This document shows, piece by piece, positions 54,134 through 64,000 of a stretch of DNA of 64,000 nucleotides. Within the stretch, counting starts at the first letter, position 1; every line of letters starts with the position of its first letter. The position numbers and the translations under genes are program-made. The stretch covers positions 124,001-188,000 of the forward strand of contig JAAZYX010000020.1 of NCBI GenBank assembly GCA_014239435.1. Reading direction: 5' to 3'. Origin of the DNA: Fidelibacterota bacterium (GTDB lineage: Bacteria; Fidelibacterota; Marinisomatia; Marinisomatales; TCS55). Below the pieces are notes generated by a model, which did not search any database, was not told the origin of the DNA, and worked only from the letters and a program-made list of their open reading frames with translations.

Positions 54134-54550
54134 ATGAGCGCGCATCAGTCTATCCAAATCCCTAATGACAGAGACCAAATTGACAGCGTCCGAAAATTCT
54201 TCGATCAGTTTGGGGAGGAAAACCAACTTTCCGAAAAAGTAGTACATGATATCCAAATGGCTCTTGACGAGCTTTTGACCAATATTGTGAATTATGGGTA
54301 TGAAGATGACGGTGAGCACATTATTGACGTTCGCTTCGAAGTAGGCGGAAAAAACCTAAAAGTGGAGATTGTGGATGACGCTAAACCGTATAATATGCTG
54401 GAGCGTGAAGATCCCGATACAACTCTTTCTGTAGAGGATAAACCGATTGGGGGCCTTGGGGTATACCTCGTAAAGCAACTCATGTCTCATACGGAATATT
54501 TTACAAAAGGGAATAAAAACCATTTTATTATGATAAAAGGACTAGAATAA
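54134..54550 (+). CDS. RsbW/SpoIIAB-like serine kinase (HATPase_c)
   Basis: The 138-residue GHKL ATP-binding protein has an N box with Glu46 and Asn50 (ALDELLTNIVNYGY), a DDAKPYNML segment at the G1 position and the G2-like GGLGVYLVKQLM. Such proteins are anti-sigma factors or switch kinases that phosphorylate a STAS partner. The partner gene lies 12 bases downstream, followed by a PP2C phosphatase, a complete partner-switching set. No sigma factor is in the window, so the controlled target is unknown. About 215 bases of divergent spacer precede it. Confidence 0.88.
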   Translation: MSAHQSIQIPNDRDQIDSVRKFFDQFGEENQLSEKVVHDIQMALDELLTNIVNYGYEDDGEHIIDVRFEVGGKNLKVEIVDDAKPYNMLEREDPDTTLSVEDKPIGGLGVYLVKQLMSHTEYFTKGNKNHFIMIKGLE

Positions 54551-54562
54551 GGAAACCATTTC

Positions 54563-54895
54563 ATGGAAATACGAGACAAAAAAGAGGGCGAAGTCGCCAT
54601 CATTGAACCGGTAGGAAGAATTGATACCAATACATCCGGTGAGTTTGAAGATAAAATTGTGGAAGTAATGGATCGGGGAGAAACCAGGTTTGTCGTTGAT
54701 TTAAAAGAAATCGACTATATTTCCAGTGCCGGGCTCAGGGTATTCCTGATGGCGGCTAAGAAGCTTAAATCTTCGGGCGGATCGTTTGTCCTATGTTCGA
54801 TGAGTGATCATATTAAGGAAGTATTCGACATTTCCGGGTTTACCCCTATTTTTACGATTACACCGGACCAAGCTTCCGGTGCGGAAGCTGCTTAG
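54563..54895 (+). CDS. STAS-domain anti-sigma factor antagonist (RsbV/SpoIIAA-like)
   Basis: The 110-residue protein is a single STAS domain. VVDLKEIDYISSAGLRVFLM contains the phosphorylation loop with Ser54 and Ser55, one of which should be the switch serine. When unphosphorylated it would bind the RsbW-like kinase encoded 12 bases upstream and release that kinase's target. The phosphatase gene 13 bases downstream would reactivate it. Confidence 0.9.
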   Translation: MEIRDKKEGEVAIIEPVGRIDTNTSGEFEDKIVEVMDRGETRFVVDLKEIDYISSAGLRVFLMAAKKLKSSGGSFVLCSMSDHIKEVFDISGFTPIFTITPDQASGAEAA

Positions 54896-54908
54896 GAAAT
54901 ATTCGAAC

Positions 54909-56174
54909 ATGAGTGAAAACCGCCAAGTCAGAAATCTAAATGCGCTCCTAGACGTCGCCAAAGCGCTTGGCGGTGAAATGCAGCTCGATAACCTCCTCCC
55001 TATTATCCTGCAAAAAACAACCGAAGTCATGGATGCAGACAGAAGCAGCCTTTTTATTTATGATGATACAACCAATGAGTTGTGGAGTAAAGTTGCCGAA
55101 GGAATGGGGGAAAAGGAAATTCGATTCCCGGTCGGAATCGGAATCGCAGGCGATGTGGCTAAAACACTGAAAACGGCGAATATTCCCGATGCATACGAAG
55201 ACGATCGCTTCAATCCCGCATTTGATAAAAAATCCAACTATCGTACCAAATCCGTGTTATGTATGCCGATGATTAATAACGATGGTTCGCTGGTTGGCGT
55301 TGTGCAGGTACTCAATAAAATGGACGGTGGCGCGTTTGACGATCAAGATGAAAACTTGCTTGAAGCATTATCCGTTCAAGCAGCGGTGGCCATCCAAAGA
55401 GCACAGCTTTTGGAAGCATTCGTTGAAAAACAGCGGATCCAGGAGTCCTTAAAGCTTGCGGCGGATATCCAAATGGGGATGCTTCCCAAAAATTTCCCTG
55501 CTTTCCCGGAAAGAGATGATTTTGATTTGTTTGCAAGTATCATTCCAGCAAAAGAAGTCGGAGGCGATTTCTACGACTTTTTCCTTATAGATGAAGATCA
55601 TCTGTGTTTTGTGATTGGCGATGTCTCTGGAAAAGGGGTACCCGCAGCGCTGTTTATGGCGGTAACCAAAACGCATGTGGCTGCAAGCACAATCCCCGGA
55701 GTGGAGCCGTCCGATATTTTATTCCGTGCAAATAATGAATTGAGTAAGGATAATGATCAGGGCATGTTTTGCACCATATTCTATGGAATCTTGAACACCA
55801 AAACAGGCGAGGTTCATTATTCGAATGGAGGGCACAATCCTCCCTACATCGTCCGCGAAGACGGTACCAATGAACAAGTGGAGGGCACCATGGGCATTGC
55901 GCTCGGGGTGATGGATGAAATGGATTTCGGCGTCAACGCTATTACTCTGAAAAAGGGGGATTCCATGTATTTATATACAGATGGAGTAAACGAGGCGATG
56001 GATATTGGCGGGAATGAATACTCCTACGAAAGACTAGAAGAATTCCTAACATCAACCGCCGGACAAAAAACAACGGATATTGTTGCGGGAAGCTTGTCAG
56101 ATATTGAGGTATTTGTCGGAAACGCGGAGCAGTCCGACGATATTACCGTCCTGATGGTGAAATATACGGGCTGA
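54909..56174 (+). CDS. GAF-PP2C (SpoIIE/RsbU-type) phosphatase
   Basis: The 421-residue protein has an N-terminal GAF domain (about 15-165; DADRSSLFIYDD, LVGVVQVLNKMDGGAFDDQD) and a C-terminal SpoIIE-type PP2C domain (about 200-420). The metal-binding stretches are PAKEVGGDFYDFF, VIGDVSGKGVPAALFMA and SDDITVLMV. It should dephosphorylate the STAS protein when its GAF domain senses a signal. I chose the ATG at 54909, because the 35-residue upstream extension lies inside the STAS gene. Its terminator overlaps the end of the convergent transglycosylase gene. Confidence 0.9.
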   Translation: MSENRQVRNLNALLDVAKALGGEMQLDNLLPIILQKTTEVMDADRSSLFIYDDTTNELWSKVAEGMGEKEIRFPVGIGIAGDVAKTLKTANIPDAYEDDRFNPAFDKKSNYRTKSVLCMPMINNDGSLVGVVQVLNKMDGGAFDDQDENLLEALSVQAAVAIQRAQLLEAFVEKQRIQESLKLAADIQMGMLPKNFPAFPERDDFDLFASIIPAKEVGGDFYDFFLIDEDHLCFVIGDVSGKGVPAALFMAVTKTHVAASTIPGVEPSDILFRANNELSKDNDQGMFCTIFYGILNTKTGEVHYSNGGHNPPYIVREDGTNEQVEGTMGIALGVMDEMDFGVNAITLKKGDSMYLYTDGVNEAMDIGGNEYSYERLEEFLTSTAGQKTTDIVAGSLSDIEVFVGNAEQSDDITVLMVKYTG

Positions 56175-58619: not shown

Positions 58620-58727
58620 TTATTCATTTCGTTTGAATCCCAATTTAAGGCGGTTAATCCTTTGTGAAATCATGAAAAAGCAATACCTTTTGGGTTCAAT
58701 TCCAATCAACAATTATCGGGAGTTTTT

Positions 58728-59996
58728 ATGCCGGAAGAAATGAAAAGTGTCATTACCTGCGATCTGGACGGAAAAGTTGAAACCTTTAGTGAGGGAGCTG
58801 AAGCGCTGTTCGGGTTTACCGCAAATGAAATTATTGGGAAAGCGCGTGTAGGCGATTTTAGCGATGGACAGGTGGTGTTGGGGCATGTTGTCGGCTGGCT
58901 CAAAGAAGCCGTGGAAAAAGGTGAATGGGAGGGTAACACTGTTTTTTTGCACAAAGATAAAAGTGAAATCCCCTGCCATATCAAGATAACTCCCACAAAA
59001 GGTCCGGAGGGTGAGCACATCGGCTATTGCGGAGTAACGTCGCGCCTTCAGGATAAAACAGCCGAGGAGGTTCGTCCAAAAATTAACCTGATGACAAAAA
59101 TCTTTACTTGGCTGGTAATTATGCGCCTGCCGTTTCTGACCGCTACATTGGTGCCTCTTTTGGTCGGTGGGGCCGTTGTAAACTATCTTGGAATGGATGT
59201 GAGTTGGGGATGGCTCGGGCTTACTATTCTTGGAGGGTTTTTCCTTCATATCGGCACTAATACCGCAAACGATTATTTTGATCACACCAGCGGTACAGAT
59301 GAGGCAAACTACAATTATATGGTCCCCTTTTCCGGAGGCAGCCGCAGTATTCAAATGGGGCTTATTTCCGCAAAAGGAATGTTAACTGTGTCGGTGGTTT
59401 CATTCGCCATGGCTGCGGCTATTGGTGTGCCGCTGATTCAAAAAGCAGGCATAAATGTACTCTGGCTCGGGCTCGCCGGATTTCTTTCAGGATTCTTTTA
59501 TACGGCACCGCCGTTTAGGTTTGCATCGCGCAAAGGGTTGGGCGAACTTCTGATCGGACTCAATTTTGGACCTATGATGGTGGCCGGATCCGCGCTCGTG
59601 CAAACGGGTAATATTCTCCCGGAAGCGTTGTTGGCCGGGATCCCGGTCGGACTTTTGGTTGCTGCGATTGTTTACATCAACGAATTCCCCGATCATGACG
59701 GAGATAAGGCTACCGGTAAAAATACACTGATTGTGGTGTTCGGTCCGGAAAAAGCAAGATTCGGGTATGTTTTGTTAGTTGGGAGCGCTTTTGCCAGTAT
59801 TGTTGTCATGGCGCTGAGTGGTACATTTCCATTGCTGTCGCTGATTGCCCTTCCAACCATGTGGTTTGGGTTTAAAGCCATGACTACGTTATATCAGTAT
59901 TACAACGACAGATTGCTGATGCCGGCGAATGCAGGAACGATTAATATGCACTTTCTTGCAGGTATTCTCTTTTGTATCGGAATCTGGCTCGGCTAA
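58728..59996 (+). CDS. PAS-UbiA fusion: prenyltransferase (MenA-like) with N-terminal sensor domain
   Basis: The 422-residue protein joins a PAS domain (about 1-115; TFSEGAEALFGFTANEIIGK, with GYCGVTSRLQDK at its end) to a UbiA-superfamily prenyltransferase (about 122-420) with about nine helices. The two aspartate motifs are present: NDYFDHTSGTD at 181-191 and the PDHDGDKATGK stretch (Asp322, Asp326). These bind the prenyl diphosphate through magnesium. The relation to MenA/quinone synthesis is by resemblance only. The PAS part has no attached kinase. One uninterrupted frame spans both parts, so it is not an annotation artefact of two overlapping ORFs. Confidence 0.85.
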   Translation: MPEEMKSVITCDLDGKVETFSEGAEALFGFTANEIIGKARVGDFSDGQVVLGHVVGWLKEAVEKGEWEGNTVFLHKDKSEIPCHIKITPTKGPEGEHIGYCGVTSRLQDKTAEEVRPKINLMTKIFTWLVIMRLPFLTATLVPLLVGGAVVNYLGMDVSWGWLGLTILGGFFLHIGTNTANDYFDHTSGTDEANYNYMVPFSGGSRSIQMGLISAKGMLTVSVVSFAMAAAIGVPLIQKAGINVLWLGLAGFLSGFFYTAPPFRFASRKGLGELLIGLNFGPMMVAGSALVQTGNILPEALLAGIPVGLLVAAIVYINEFPDHDGDKATGKNTLIVVFGPEKARFGYVLLVGSAFASIVVMALSGTFPLLSLIALPTMWFGFKAMTTLYQYYNDRLLMPANAGTINMHFLAGILFCIGIWLG

Positions 59997-60652: not shown

Positions 60653-63600
60653 TTATTTCATTAAGACCAGCTTACGGATGTCTGTAAACGTTCCCGTTGC
60701 GCCGGCTGCCTGAATCCGATAGATATACATACCAGAAGCTACAGCAGAGCCGCGGTCGTTCAAGCCGTTCCAGCGAACTGCATGATATCCAGCCTGATGA
60801 TCGCCGCTCACAAGCGTCCGAATGCGCATTCCAAGGAGGTTGTACACCTCGATGGTTACCTTAGACATTTCAGGTACGTCGTACCGGATGGTCGTAATCG
60901 GGTTGAACGGGTTCGGATAGTTCTGATGCAGTGTAAACTGCTCCGGAACAAGTCCGTGTCCATCTACGCCCAAGAACCAGCCAACATCAATCGTCAGAGC
61001 GAATGGTCCGTTATCCGAATCGGTTGTATCCATTCCGTCGGTTGCAGACACATCCCAGATGAGTGTGAATAAACCGCCGGATATATCAACCGTGGATGAA
61101 TCGGCCGCTGCCATTAATCTCATATAAAGCGCGTCGAGGTATTCGCCGGACAGGGTTGAATCCATGTCTAGAGATACCGCCATACCTGTGCCGTCATCTA
61201 CGCCGAGCGTAAGAATGTAGCTTACTGCGTCTCCGTCATCGTCTGTAGAGCCTGACCATTCAAAGCGAATATCATCGTTGCCGGCCGCCAGCATTTCCGG
61301 AGTAACCACAACTGTGTCGCCGTCGTCCGGGGTAAGCAGTGCCACAGCAGACGGAGCGTTGTTCGCTTCGTCGCCTTCCACTAGCACATCATCAATGTAC
61401 CAGTTAGTGGCATAATCACCGTGATAGACAAATGCGATGTGCACACGCTCTTCGCCGTCATAGGCGCTGAGGTCTAGTAGGGTTTCCGTATATGCGGTGT
61501 ATGCTGTGCTTTCCTCGCTCAGTTCTACCCATGTCATATCCGTAGAAGGATCGCCTCCAACTGTGGATACATAGACGCCGTGATAATCATAATAGCTCGC
61601 CATATACGTATTCTTCTGATAGAACGACAGCTCAGAGTTCGCAAAATCCGACAGATCAATGGCCGGAGAAACGATCCAGTCATTGGCGCCTGTTGCCACA
61701 TTATTATCATCATGCCAGATTGCATAATCACCCGAGTTGGATGATGTTGTGAGCTCCCATGCGTCATTAGCATCGCCGAGCTGGTACACCAGCCAGTCTG
61801 GGGCGCCTGTTTCAAACCCTTCGGCAAGCGCAGCATTCACACCCTCACCCATTACATAGACCGTATCGGGGCTGGAATCGCCGTCATGTGTAATAACCAC
61901 ATTTCCGGCGTACATGCCCGTATCCGATGCTGTAAAGGTGATGGTCAGCGTATCAAAGCCGAGACTGTCCACCGTGCCGCTTACAGGAGTAACCGTAAAT
62001 GCAGCATTGTCAGACGTAACTGTGTATGTCAGGTCCGCTGCTCCTTCATTCCTGATTGGAAGAGAAACATCTGATCCGTCCGTATCAGACAGAAGCCCAA
62101 GCCCAAAATCGAGCGTATCTGCATCCACCACAAGTACAGGATCTGTGCTGACAAACTTCTCAGGCAGCAGCACATCGTCCACGCGCAGGTAACTGTAGTT
62201 GTTCGTTCCAGCAGCGCCGTTGTGCACAATGGCCACATAAATATCCTGGCCGTTGTAGAGGCTTAAGTCCGCGCCGGAGCGTCCGTTTACACCGTATACC
62301 GGAATAACCGTCGTCAGAGGCGTAGATCCAAAACTCGTTATTGCATTATCCGTTGTGGATACAAACACCTTCAGCGTTTCTGCCGTTACGGATGAACTGC
62401 TTGAGTTATGGAAGAAAATGATCGAGTCATCGGCTACCACGGAAAGCTTCCGTGTAATCAACCAGTCATCGGCACCGGATGTAGAGAATTTAGAGCGAGC
62501 ATAGTTGCCGCTTTCTCCCGGCCCGTAAGAGCTGTAATCAAACGACCACATATTGCCGTCTCCGTCATTATCCACATTGGTCCAGCCGTATGGAATTGCC
62601 GCATCATCAAAATTGGCAACCATGCGCCCCGCGTCTCCGTTAAAGACAACGGTTTGCGGACTGTTTGGATCGTTGGAATAAAATGTGACTGTATAGGATG
62701 ATCGTCCAAACGAGCTCGGTGAATAGGTAATATCCACAAGAACATCGTCGCCGGAGGCCGTTGTGTCGCCGGCCGCCACGCTGGCAAGACTGACCGAGAG
62801 GTCAGCACTGCTGGACATGACACTGTCAATCACAAGGCCAATACCGCCTTGGCTTGAGCCGATATCAAAGGATGTGTCCGAAGCTGTTGCGCCAATGGTA
62901 CCGATAAGCAAGTCAAGCGTATCGCTGTCAAGCGTAAAAGCTGCCGTTGCCGGATAGTATGTCGGCGGTATGTACACATCGTCAAGGTAAATCTGCCAAG
63001 CAGAGAATGATCCGTCACCAACATAATTCCACTGAATATAGACATCGTCTGAGCGCAGTACACCAAGGTCGTAAGACTCAAAGGTCCACGCTCCGCCGCT
63101 TCCGCCGCCAACCACATCAACCTGTACCCACGATGCGCCGCCATCGGAAGAAACCGACACAATCGTGCTGTCCGGGTTTCCGGTGGATGTTTCTGCCCAC
63201 CAGAATGCAAGGTAATGATTCCCGTCATCGTTTGTATCTAATCTGCGGGTAATCAGTTTTGCATCCGTATTCGTATAGGTTGAATAATAGCTTGCGCTTC
63301 CGCTATGCGCTGAAGTAGAGGCTGTCCACGAGCCACCGGTGCCGGTATCGTCTGACCATGAGTCAGGCAAGCCGCCTTCAAATCCTTCGTGTGTATAGTC
63401 ATCCGCAACCGCAAATCCACTTAAGGTAATGGCTGAATCGCCACCGACGCTGTTGCTGTGGAACATGGCTGCATCTTCATATATGCCCGCTGCTGACGGA
63501 TCGAAGTAGATATCCACGTAACCCGTATCTCCGGGGTTGATGGACATAGCTGCTGATAAATCATCTGAATAGCCGCTTCCAACGTAGGAAATGCTGTCAA

Positions 63601-64000
63601 TCGTCAAAATTGCCGCTCCGTTGTTATAGATCTCAAGATTGTTCAGAGTATCCGTTTCGGTTCCGGCAACCACCACATCAAATGTAGCTGCTGTTCCCTG
63701 AAGCTCTAAGAGCGGATCCGGGCTTACCCAAGCCGCCGGGAGATATGCGTCGTCAAGATAGAAGTAATCAGATGTCGTATAAGATCCCGACCCTGTGTAC
63801 GTCCATTTGAAGACAACATTATCCGAAGCAATTTCGCCAAGATCATAGGAAGAAAACGCCCATGTGCTTGCTGCGCCTTTTTCAATGCCACCGGCTGCTA
63901 CCCATGTAGCACCTCCATCGGTGGAAACATAGAACGTTGTGGAATCAGCAGAGCCGTCTCCAAAGCCGCGATTCATGTGCCAGAATCCGACTTCGTGGCT
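60653..64000 (-). CDS. large secreted protein, cleaved-adhesin and choice-of-anchor domains, FlgD-like C-terminal sorting domain (5' end outside window)
   Basis: The frame is open to the window edge, so at least 1,115 residues are seen and the N terminus is missing. Three or four cleaved-adhesin (MAM-like) domains alternate with choice-of-anchor D/HYDIN-like Ig domains. The former are marked by FEGGLPDSW, WLITRKLSV, FETGAPDW and YIDDVLV; the latter by NPGDTGYVDIYFDPSAAGIY and similar. An Ig-like stretch (NAPSAVALLTPDDGD) and the C-terminal FlgD-like domain (HQNYPNPFNPITTIRYDVP, VEVYNLLGMRIRTLV, SGMYIYRIQA) follow. Such C-terminal domains direct export and surface attachment through type IX secretion in Bacteroidota and related phyla. 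An adhesin or surface enzyme is likely. Confidence 0.85.
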   Translation of the reverse strand, partial: SHEVGFWHMNRGFGDGSADSTTFYVSTDGGATWVAAGGIEKGAASTWAFSSYDLGEIASDNVVFKWTYTGSGSYTTSDYFYLDDAYLPAAWVSPDPLLELQGTAATFDVVVAGTETDTLNNLEIYNNGAAILTIDSISYVGSGYSDDLSAAMSINPGDTGYVDIYFDPSAAGIYEDAAMFHSNSVGGDSAITLSGFAVADDYTHEGFEGGLPDSWSDDTGTGGSWTASTSAHSGSASYYSTYTNTDAKLITRRLDTNDDGNHYLAFWWAETSTGNPDSTIVSVSSDGGASWVQVDVVGGGSGGAWTFESYDLGVLRSDDVYIQWNYVGDGSFSAWQIYLDDVYIPPTYYPATAAFTLDSDTLDLLIGTIGATASDTSFDIGSSQGGIGLVIDSVMSSSADLSVSLASVAAGDTTASGDDVLVDITYSPSSFGRSSYTVTFYSNDPNSPQTVVFNGDAGRMVANFDDAAIPYGWTNVDNDGDGNMWSFDYSSYGPGESGNYARSKFSTSGADDWLITRKLSVVADDSIIFFHNSSSSSVTAETLKVFVSTTDNAITSFGSTPLTTVIPVYGVNGRSGADLSLYNGQDIYVAIVHNGAAGTNNYSYLRVDDVLLPEKFVSTDPVLVVDADTLDFGLGLLSDTDGSDVSLPIRNEGAADLTYTVTSDNAAFTVTPVSGTVDSLGFDTLTITFTASDTGMYAGNVVITHDGDSSPDTVYVMGEGVNAALAEGFETGAPDWLVYQLGDANDAWELTTSSNSGDYAIWHDDNNVATGANDWIVSPAIDLSDFANSELSFYQKNTYMASYYDYHGVYVSTVGGDPSTDMTWVELSEESTAYTAYTETLLDLSAYDGEERVHIAFVYHGDYATNWYIDDVLVEGDEANNAPSAVALLTPDDGDTVVVTPEMLAAGNDDIRFEWSGSTDDDGDAVSYILTLGVDDGTGMAVSLDMDSTLSGEYLDALYMRLMAAADSSTVDISGGLFTLIWDVSATDGMDTTDSDNGPFALTIDVGWFLGVDGHGLVPEQFTLHQNYPNPFNPITTIRYDVPEMSKVTIEVYNLLGMRIRTLVSGDHQAGYHAVRWNGLNDRGSAVASGMYIYRIQAAGATGTFTDIRKLVLMK

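Follow-up and report, generated by a model that had tools for sequence, protein, structure and literature searches.

A PAS domain fused to a MenA/UBIAD1-like UbiA prenyltransferase in Marinimicrobia and Anaerolineales, with a possible role in the control of quinone synthesis

The fusion gene and its genomic context

The window, i.e. the entire 64,000-nucleotide stretch of DNA analysed here, carries an open reading frame at 58728..59996 (+) that encodes 422 amino acids plus stop, as judged from the ORF listing, Pfam, and intact relatives. It contains no internal stops over the 422 residues in a single frame, and a GGGAG element (58718..58722, +), on direct reading a likely ribosome-binding site, is located 5' of the ATG. 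A preliminary description of this locus reported a PAS domain and a UbiA prenyltransferase with both aspartate motifs in one frame, and this is confirmed by the ORF, Pfam, and the invariant aspartates. The PAS domain (residues 1-106, with the fold spanning 7-106; 58728..59045, +) is defined by PAS_9 (PF13426; residues 8-100, E 4.5e-10, 40.2 bits vs a cut-off of 27), by the structural model and by a match to the solved chain 3lyx_A, and the Pfam PAS model scores 26 vs a cut-off of 22.6. A linker, delimited on the structural model (residues 107-120; 59046..59087, +), connects the PAS to the first membrane helix of the UbiA domain (residues 121-422; 59088..59993, +), which is identified by PF01040 (residues 141-387, E 2.9e-31, 109.1 bits vs a cut-off of 34.2) and by a match to 8djk_B. 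The AlphaFold model, run on a 28-row alignment, has a mean pLDDT of 84.7 and displays a PAS fold, a linker of ~14 residues, and an all-helical UbiA membrane domain, with low confidence in the loops past both aspartate motifs.

Alignments place the first aspartate motif, NDYFDHTSGTD, at residues 181-191 (59268..59300, +) and the second, NEFPDHDGD, at residues 318-326 (59679..59705, +). Both are intact, and D182, D185, D191, D322, and D326 are invariant among 28 aligned PAS-UbiA proteins. By Pfam, motifs, and predicted fold, PAS-UbiA is a UbiA superfamily prenyltransferase, and prenyl transfer is its predicted activity. Four residues of the PAS domain, placed by alignment and model, are candidates for sensing: Cys11 in strand A-beta (58758..58760, +), His53 in helix F-alpha (58884..58886, +), which is a possible haem or quinone ligand, Trp57, and Cys101 in strand I-beta (59028..59030, +). 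His53, Trp57, and Cys11 are invariant among the 28 proteins, and Cys101 is nearly so.

The gene is flanked by an acyltransferase gene upstream and an SSB gene downstream, each on the opposite strand. No conserved quinone operon surrounds PAS-UbiA, as the neighbours are unrelated in the window and vary among lineages. Further upstream, ATPase-like, STAS-like, and GAF-SpoIIE phosphatase genes are arranged in series (54134-56174) and resemble a partner-switching signalling set, of which the GAF-SpoIIE protein alone was scanned with Pfam. Downstream, 60653-64000 (-) encodes a large repetitive secreted-type protein of >1100 aa with an apparent C-terminal sorting domain at its own end, its frame being still open where the window stops. 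The window genome is 1.74 Mb and 93.4% complete, and the closest named loci belong to Candidatus Neomarinimicrobiota/Marinimicrobia MAGs, with protein identity up to 84%.

A check of this genome for menA or ubiA elsewhere returned only CtaB and a GGGP-synthase-like protein, so that it encodes three UbiA proteins including PAS-UbiA. CtaB scores 284 bits on TIGR01473, over cut-off, and adjoins a CtaA-like ORF; the best models of the GGGP-synthase-like protein give 188 and 177 bits, both below cut-off. PAS-UbiA is therefore the sole MenA-like enzyme of the window genome. Its best NCBIfam matches are MenA models, at 149 bits for the window protein and 162 bits for an Anaerolineales member (L061). 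On the MenA model TIGR00751, the window protein reaches 93.1 bits, below the cut-off of 102.15, with scores of 100.3 for L061, 83.1 for L110 (one of the PNPOx-UbiA proteins described below), 132.8 for Archaeoglobus L071, and 246.8 for L121, a MenB-linked MenA. The best structure match of the enzyme domain is UBIAD1 (8djk_B; Z 25.8, rmsd 3.2, 267 residues, 18% identity), and 4od4_A is a further fold match (Z 21.9). The second motif reads NEFPD or NQFPD in 25/25 PAS rows and NNMRD or NNLRD in all four MenA rows, i.e. E. coli MenA and three MenB-linked MenA. True MenA was rejected as a family label since the score is below the TIGR00751 cut-off, the motif differs, and the partner genes are missing, although the protein may still work like MenA.

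Distribution, origin and conservation

A match spanning PAS and UbiA was found in 26 of 61 genomes, comprising the window's own and 60 relatives. To be counted, a genome needed a match that started no later than residue 5 and extended beyond residue 130; in three of the 26 (G013, G023, and G034) the match is cut at contig ends. In a set of 76 named loci, which overlaps with the 61-genome set, the PAS part is present in 31. This count includes L053, where a contig end inside the PAS leaves the domain visible only from residue 34, and leaves out L058, which starts at a contig edge past the PAS. Five of the 31 loci are from Anaerolineales (Chloroflexota), with 47-49% identity, and two loci of ~80% identity, titled Chloroflexi (L036) and Nitrospina (L038), look like misbinned Marinimicrobia. 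The preliminary description had considered a frameshift or stop between the domains in other assemblies, and orthologues devoid of the PAS part. No such interruption was seen in these genomes and loci, and the orthologues keep the PAS part; the fusion of a PAS domain to a quinone-type UbiA was thus borne out, as a conserved architecture. An assembly or frameshift artefact, or a chimera, was rejected because numerous separate assemblies from two phyla show the uninterrupted fusion with both parts conserved, and we regard the probability of such an artefact as negligible. Unfused members of the PAS-UbiA clade also exist.

In a tree of UbiA domains, which is a quick tree with long branches and no bootstrap, the PAS-UbiA fusion has a single origin, and the 25 PAS rows lie on one side of a single branch (SH-aLRT 99). 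Nine PNPOx rows likewise lie on one side of their own branch in this tree of 83 (SH-aLRT 100), and a branch of 2.0 substitutions (SH-aLRT 100) separates the PAS and PNPOx UbiAs from E. coli MenA and three MenB-linked MenA. The tree represents 83 of 129 UbiA matches, namely the window protein and 24 other PAS rows, nine PNPOx, three MenB-linked MenA, E. coli MenA, and 45 others, after removal of stretches <200 aa, duplicates, and loci absent from the chosen lists. A long-branched UbiA from a Gloeobacterales bin (L103:1537-2502) groups with the wider clade, apart from E. coli MenA, and is noted as a lead only. A search of plasmids gave 45 matching records, none spanning 80% of the query, and among the five matches listed all start at residue 103 or later, past the PAS fold.

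The two parts of the protein are conserved to different degrees at different distances. The six members farthest from the window protein (L059-L064) are 53-56% identical to it in the PAS and 39-48% in UbiA, which indicates that the PAS is under strong constraint and not decaying. Compared to the closest Marinimicrobia, the PAS is slightly less conserved than UbiA, and PAS dN is at least twice UbiA dN in two of six close pairs (L034/L035 and L043/L044), which is mildly against a stronger constraint on the PAS at short range. Comparisons of dN/dS with the window protein were saturated, dS being mostly not computable, and identities and the six close pairs alone were therefore used.

Quinone-pathway markers and a parallel fusion

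Markers of quinone pathways were counted as matches over curated cut-offs in the 61 genomes (26 with PAS-UbiA and 35 others). The genomes are MAGs, with a completeness of 58-97% in the PAS set. Matches to MenB, MenD, and UbiE below cut-off were taken as paralogues; similar levels also occur in genomes that carry the true gene. The totals were 12 genomes for MenB, 13 for MenD, 0 for MqnC, 31 for UbiE, 6 for UbiD, 32 for HPPD, and 57 for NuoH. MenB was found in 0/26 PAS-UbiA genomes vs 12/35 others (p 0.0006), MenD in 0/26 vs 13/35 (p 0.0003), and UbiE in 3/26 (G017, G034, and G044) vs 28/35 (p 9e-8), with kinship ignored in these and the following p values, as the Fisher tests treat related genomes as independent. 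UbiD was present in one PAS-UbiA genome (G017) vs 5/35 others (p 0.23), and HPPD in 18/26, the window's own included, vs 14/35 (p 0.04). NuoH of complex I was present in 24 of the 26 and missing in G008 and G049, which implies that the carriers need a quinone. MqnC was over cut-off in none of the 61 genomes; its best match (G021:C2:6381-7436, L123) scored 413 against 428 bits and is a lone gene; the PAS-UbiA genome that carries it has 4% contamination.

PAS-UbiA and MenB are mutually exclusive across the 61 genomes. The split is also seen inside genus codes g3 (MenB in G004 and G011, PAS-UbiA in G017) and g6 (MenB in G014, G019, and G028, PAS-UbiA in G033-G036, and PNPOx-UbiA in G032), which counts against a mere lineage effect. 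In all but one of the 12 MenB genomes, UbiA is encoded within ~1.3 kb of MenB on the same contig, and in 13/61 genomes PAS-UbiA, PNPOx-UbiA, MenB, and MenD are all missing over cut-off. MenB was over cut-off in 0/10 further genomes (five Anaerolineales and two Marinimicrobia with PAS-UbiA, and three with unfused relatives), and MqnC in 0/14. The MqnC match of Archaeoglobus (357 bits) suggests that it may use the futalosine route. In G014, a MenB-linked MenA (L119:5192-2388, -) is continuous in a single open frame with a sulfatase-like protein, giving 935 aa, which is either a real fusion or the result of a lost stop.

Nine relative genomes, including one of the window's own genus (G001), encode a UbiA that belongs to the same broader clade and is preceded by ~165-195 non-PAS residues, and by more in one open frame (L110:5032-6645; L111:5803-7287 (-); L112, L113, L114, L115, L116, L117, and L118). 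The two Marinimicrobia proteins of the nine that were scanned with Pfam both matched PNPOx_N over the cut-off of 28.1 (37.8 for L110 and 35.1 for L111), and the nearest solved chain to the PNPOx-like domain is Lin2891 (E 1.4e-4). PNPOx_N was below cut-off in the two archaeal relatives scanned. Two archaeal UbiAs have N-terminal extensions of other kinds: L104:2164-3612 has a weak PNPOx_N match below cut-off, and UbiA is the sole Pfam match in L094:2077-3408. In the PNPOx group, UbiE is present in 9/9 genomes and MenB in 1/9. UbiE lies at most ~1.1 kb from PNPOx-UbiA on the same contig in five of the nine (G001, G032, G039, G052, and G055), the neighbour in G001 scoring 189.5 on the UbiE model. 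PNPOx-UbiA resembles PAS-UbiA in carrying a soluble domain ahead of TM1 at the equivalent place and in the lack of MenB in 8/9 genomes, but the domain is a split-barrel, flavin-type PNPOx_N instead of a PAS, and UbiE is never missing. As both groups are fused, soluble domains have been put before the UbiA enzyme at least twice.

The interpretation offered in the preliminary description is borne out in part. The prenylation of a quinone precursor that it proposed has indirect support from the MenA-like clade, the UBIAD1 fold match, the UbiE-linked PNPOx group, and complex I. What stands out beyond that description is that the quinone-pathway markers tested do not accompany PAS-UbiA.

Candidate signals, proposed function and relation to known systems

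When the modelled PAS domain was compared with solved chains, the best match was 3lyx_A (Z 17.4, rmsd 1.8, 107 residues, 20% identity), and NifL (2gj3, Z 14.9) and Aer (8dik, Z 14.8) ranked lower. Alignments with reference sensors included nine (FixL/DosP set) and ten (EvgS/ArcB set) of the 28 family proteins. His53 shares a column with the haem His of FixL/DosP in 3/3 MAFFT modes, with compensating gaps, one on either side, which leave the register of the helix uncertain. PAS-UbiA lacks a five-residue stretch of FixL and DosP, which we take to sit close to the distal residue, and its FG stretch is shorter. 3lyx likewise has a His at the place of His53, and its title names no haem or ligand. 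Trp57 falls on a Trp in NifL and Aer, and F73 occupies the expected Asn position; Trp and Asn at these positions are presumably flavin contacts. A LOV sensor was rejected: the photoactive Cys of LOV domains sits in a GxNCRFLQ motif, no Cys is found where NCRFLQ of 2z6d aligns, and the window protein is Cys-free between residues 12 and 82. Among quinone-related sensors, His53 aligns with EvgS His636 and Cys101 with EvgS Cys683 in 3/3 modes; EvgS is so divergent, however, that this His and Cys could by themselves have driven the alignment. Cys180 and Cys241 of ArcB do not coincide with the Cys positions of PAS-UbiA. EvgS and ArcB have been reported to respond to quinones via PAS Cys residues, according to the portion of PMC8174306 that we consulted. 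The quinone-binding motif aliphatic-X3-H-X2/3-L/T/S, as quoted in the same portion of PMC8174306, is absent at His53 in the window protein and occurs there in 5/28 family proteins.

Taken together, we interpret PAS-UbiA as a quinone-pathway prenyltransferase of the MenA/UBIAD1-like branch under direct PAS control, a reading to which we assign a probability of roughly 0.55. Polyprenyl transfer chemistry is established for the UbiA superfamily, and PAS-UbiA would accordingly attach a polyprenyl tail to an aromatic precursor of a quinone on the cytosolic side. The PAS domain, N-terminal and beside TM1, would alter the activity of the enzyme directly through the short linker. The substrate is likely to be a quinone precursor, and the PAS probably regulates catalysis and does more than dimerise. 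There is a strong likelihood that none of the known Men, futalosine, or UbiD-dependent routes supplies the precursor, in which case the carrier would have an unrecognised route or salvage its precursor; UbiD-dependent routes were rejected on finding UbiD in only 1/26 PAS-UbiA genomes. Tuning by redox state, oxygen, or a ligand, as suggested in the preliminary description, is plausible. More tentatively, the signal could be the redox state, with the quinone pool as its likeliest form, perceived via the invariant His of F-alpha and both conserved Cys as product or redox feedback. The positions of the Cys and of the F-alpha His are similar to those in the quinone-responsive PAS of EvgS, and this analogy was counted for the feedback reading, which we favour over haem-based gas sensing.

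Several other explanations share part of this evidence. PAS-UbiA could be a salvaging MenA variant that imports a naphthoquinone precursor (DHNA/menadione-like) from neighbours and adds the tail, with the PAS sensing supply or redox, modelled on animal UBIAD1 acting on menadione. The MenA models at the top of the NCBIfam matches, UBIAD1 as the top fold match, and the lack of MenB, MenD, and MqnC over cut-off in all 26 PAS-UbiA genomes agree with salvage. However, UbiE, which finishes menaquinone, is over cut-off in only three of these genomes, so that the product would have to remain demethylated; moreover, the MenA motif NNxRD is N-E/Q-FPD in every PAS row, and free-living ocean cells would presumably have to rely on a precursor that is scarce. 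We consider salvage possible, albeit on the unlikely side. PAS-UbiA could also act on homogentisate supplied by 4-hydroxyphenylpyruvate dioxygenase (HPPD), as the prenyltransferase of a route like that to plastoquinone or tocopherol. The higher frequency of HPPD in PAS-UbiA genomes speaks for this, but HPPD is missing over cut-off in 8/26, including G054 (92% complete) and G017 (91%), it serves tyrosine breakdown in any case, and the MenA models score best on the UbiA part, which makes this route very improbable.

Other alternatives concern the PAS domain. It may be purely structural, dimerising or stabilising the enzyme without sensing. Many PAS domains serve in dimer contacts, no ligand motif is fully present, and unfused members of the same clade occur, all in agreement with such a role. 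It is nevertheless an unlikely explanation, given that conservation at long range is higher in the PAS than in the catalytic domain, that His53, Trp57, and Cys11 are invariant, and that a PNPOx-like soluble domain is fused at the equivalent place in related enzymes. A PAS that binds haem via His53 in the manner of FixL/DosP would match quinone synthesis to oxygen, and the shared haem His column speaks for it; the uncertain register, the missing five-residue stretch, and the His of 3lyx at the same place speak against it and render an oxygen or gas sensor improbable. Direct PAS control of a quinone-pathway prenyltransferase remains our preferred reading. In a bolder and rather doubtful extension of it, PAS-UbiA would carry out the membrane step of a respiratory-quinone pathway yet to be discovered in marine Marinimicrobia and certain Anaerolineales, yielding a quinone independent of UbiE methylation and sensing the redox state of its own product pool via the PAS, with PNPOx-UbiA as a parallel, flavin-type solution. 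If true, this would be a quinone synthase with a quinone sensor built in.

To our knowledge, little is known about post-translational control of respiratory-quinone synthesis. Neither a PAS-UbiA fusion nor any UbiA with an N-terminal sensor domain is described in the literature searched, which left most subscription papers outside. In PAS-UbiA, a sensor is part of the same polypeptide as the enzyme that adds the tail, an arrangement maintained across two phyla. With complex I, no Men or futalosine markers, almost no UbiD, and a lone prenyltransferase, these Marinimicrobia are also a case of a missing quinone pathway. Many lineages without a known quinone pathway, the majority in Bacillota and Chloroflexota, are described in the portion consulted of a 2026 survey covering 26,264 bacterial genomes, which suggests that further quinones have yet to be found (PMC13386864). 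The same portion states that Gloeobacter makes menaquinone without a known pathway; a text search of the main text gave no mention of Marinimicrobi, Fidelibacter, or Anaerolin. The portion of PMC6143742 consulted contains nothing on quinone synthesis.

Compared to known systems, PAS-UbiA is closest to MenA (TIGR00751 and PRK06080 being the closest curated models), with which it shares the UbiA fold and the first motif NDYxD. It differs from MenA by NEFPD in place of NNxRDxxxD, an additional stretch ending in GGSR, the N-terminal PAS, and the missing MenB/MenD partners. UBIAD1, the animal menaquinone-4 synthase, is its top structural match, yet is only 18% identical and has no PAS. NifL, Aer, FixL, and DosP have the PAS fold and single aligned residues in common with PAS-UbiA, from which their complete ligand signatures are missing, and we know of no FAD or haem PAS of these types that controls a membrane enzyme of lipid synthesis. 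UBIAD1 has itself been described as sensing GGPP and binding HMGCR, in the portion of PMC9579336 consulted. PAS-UbiA resembles EvgS in its Cys in I-beta and His in F-alpha, although the quoted quinone motif is lacking in the window protein. The quinone- or redox-responsive PAS domains of ArcB, EvgS, and BvgS reside in histidine kinases, whereas the PAS of PAS-UbiA resides in a prenyltransferase.
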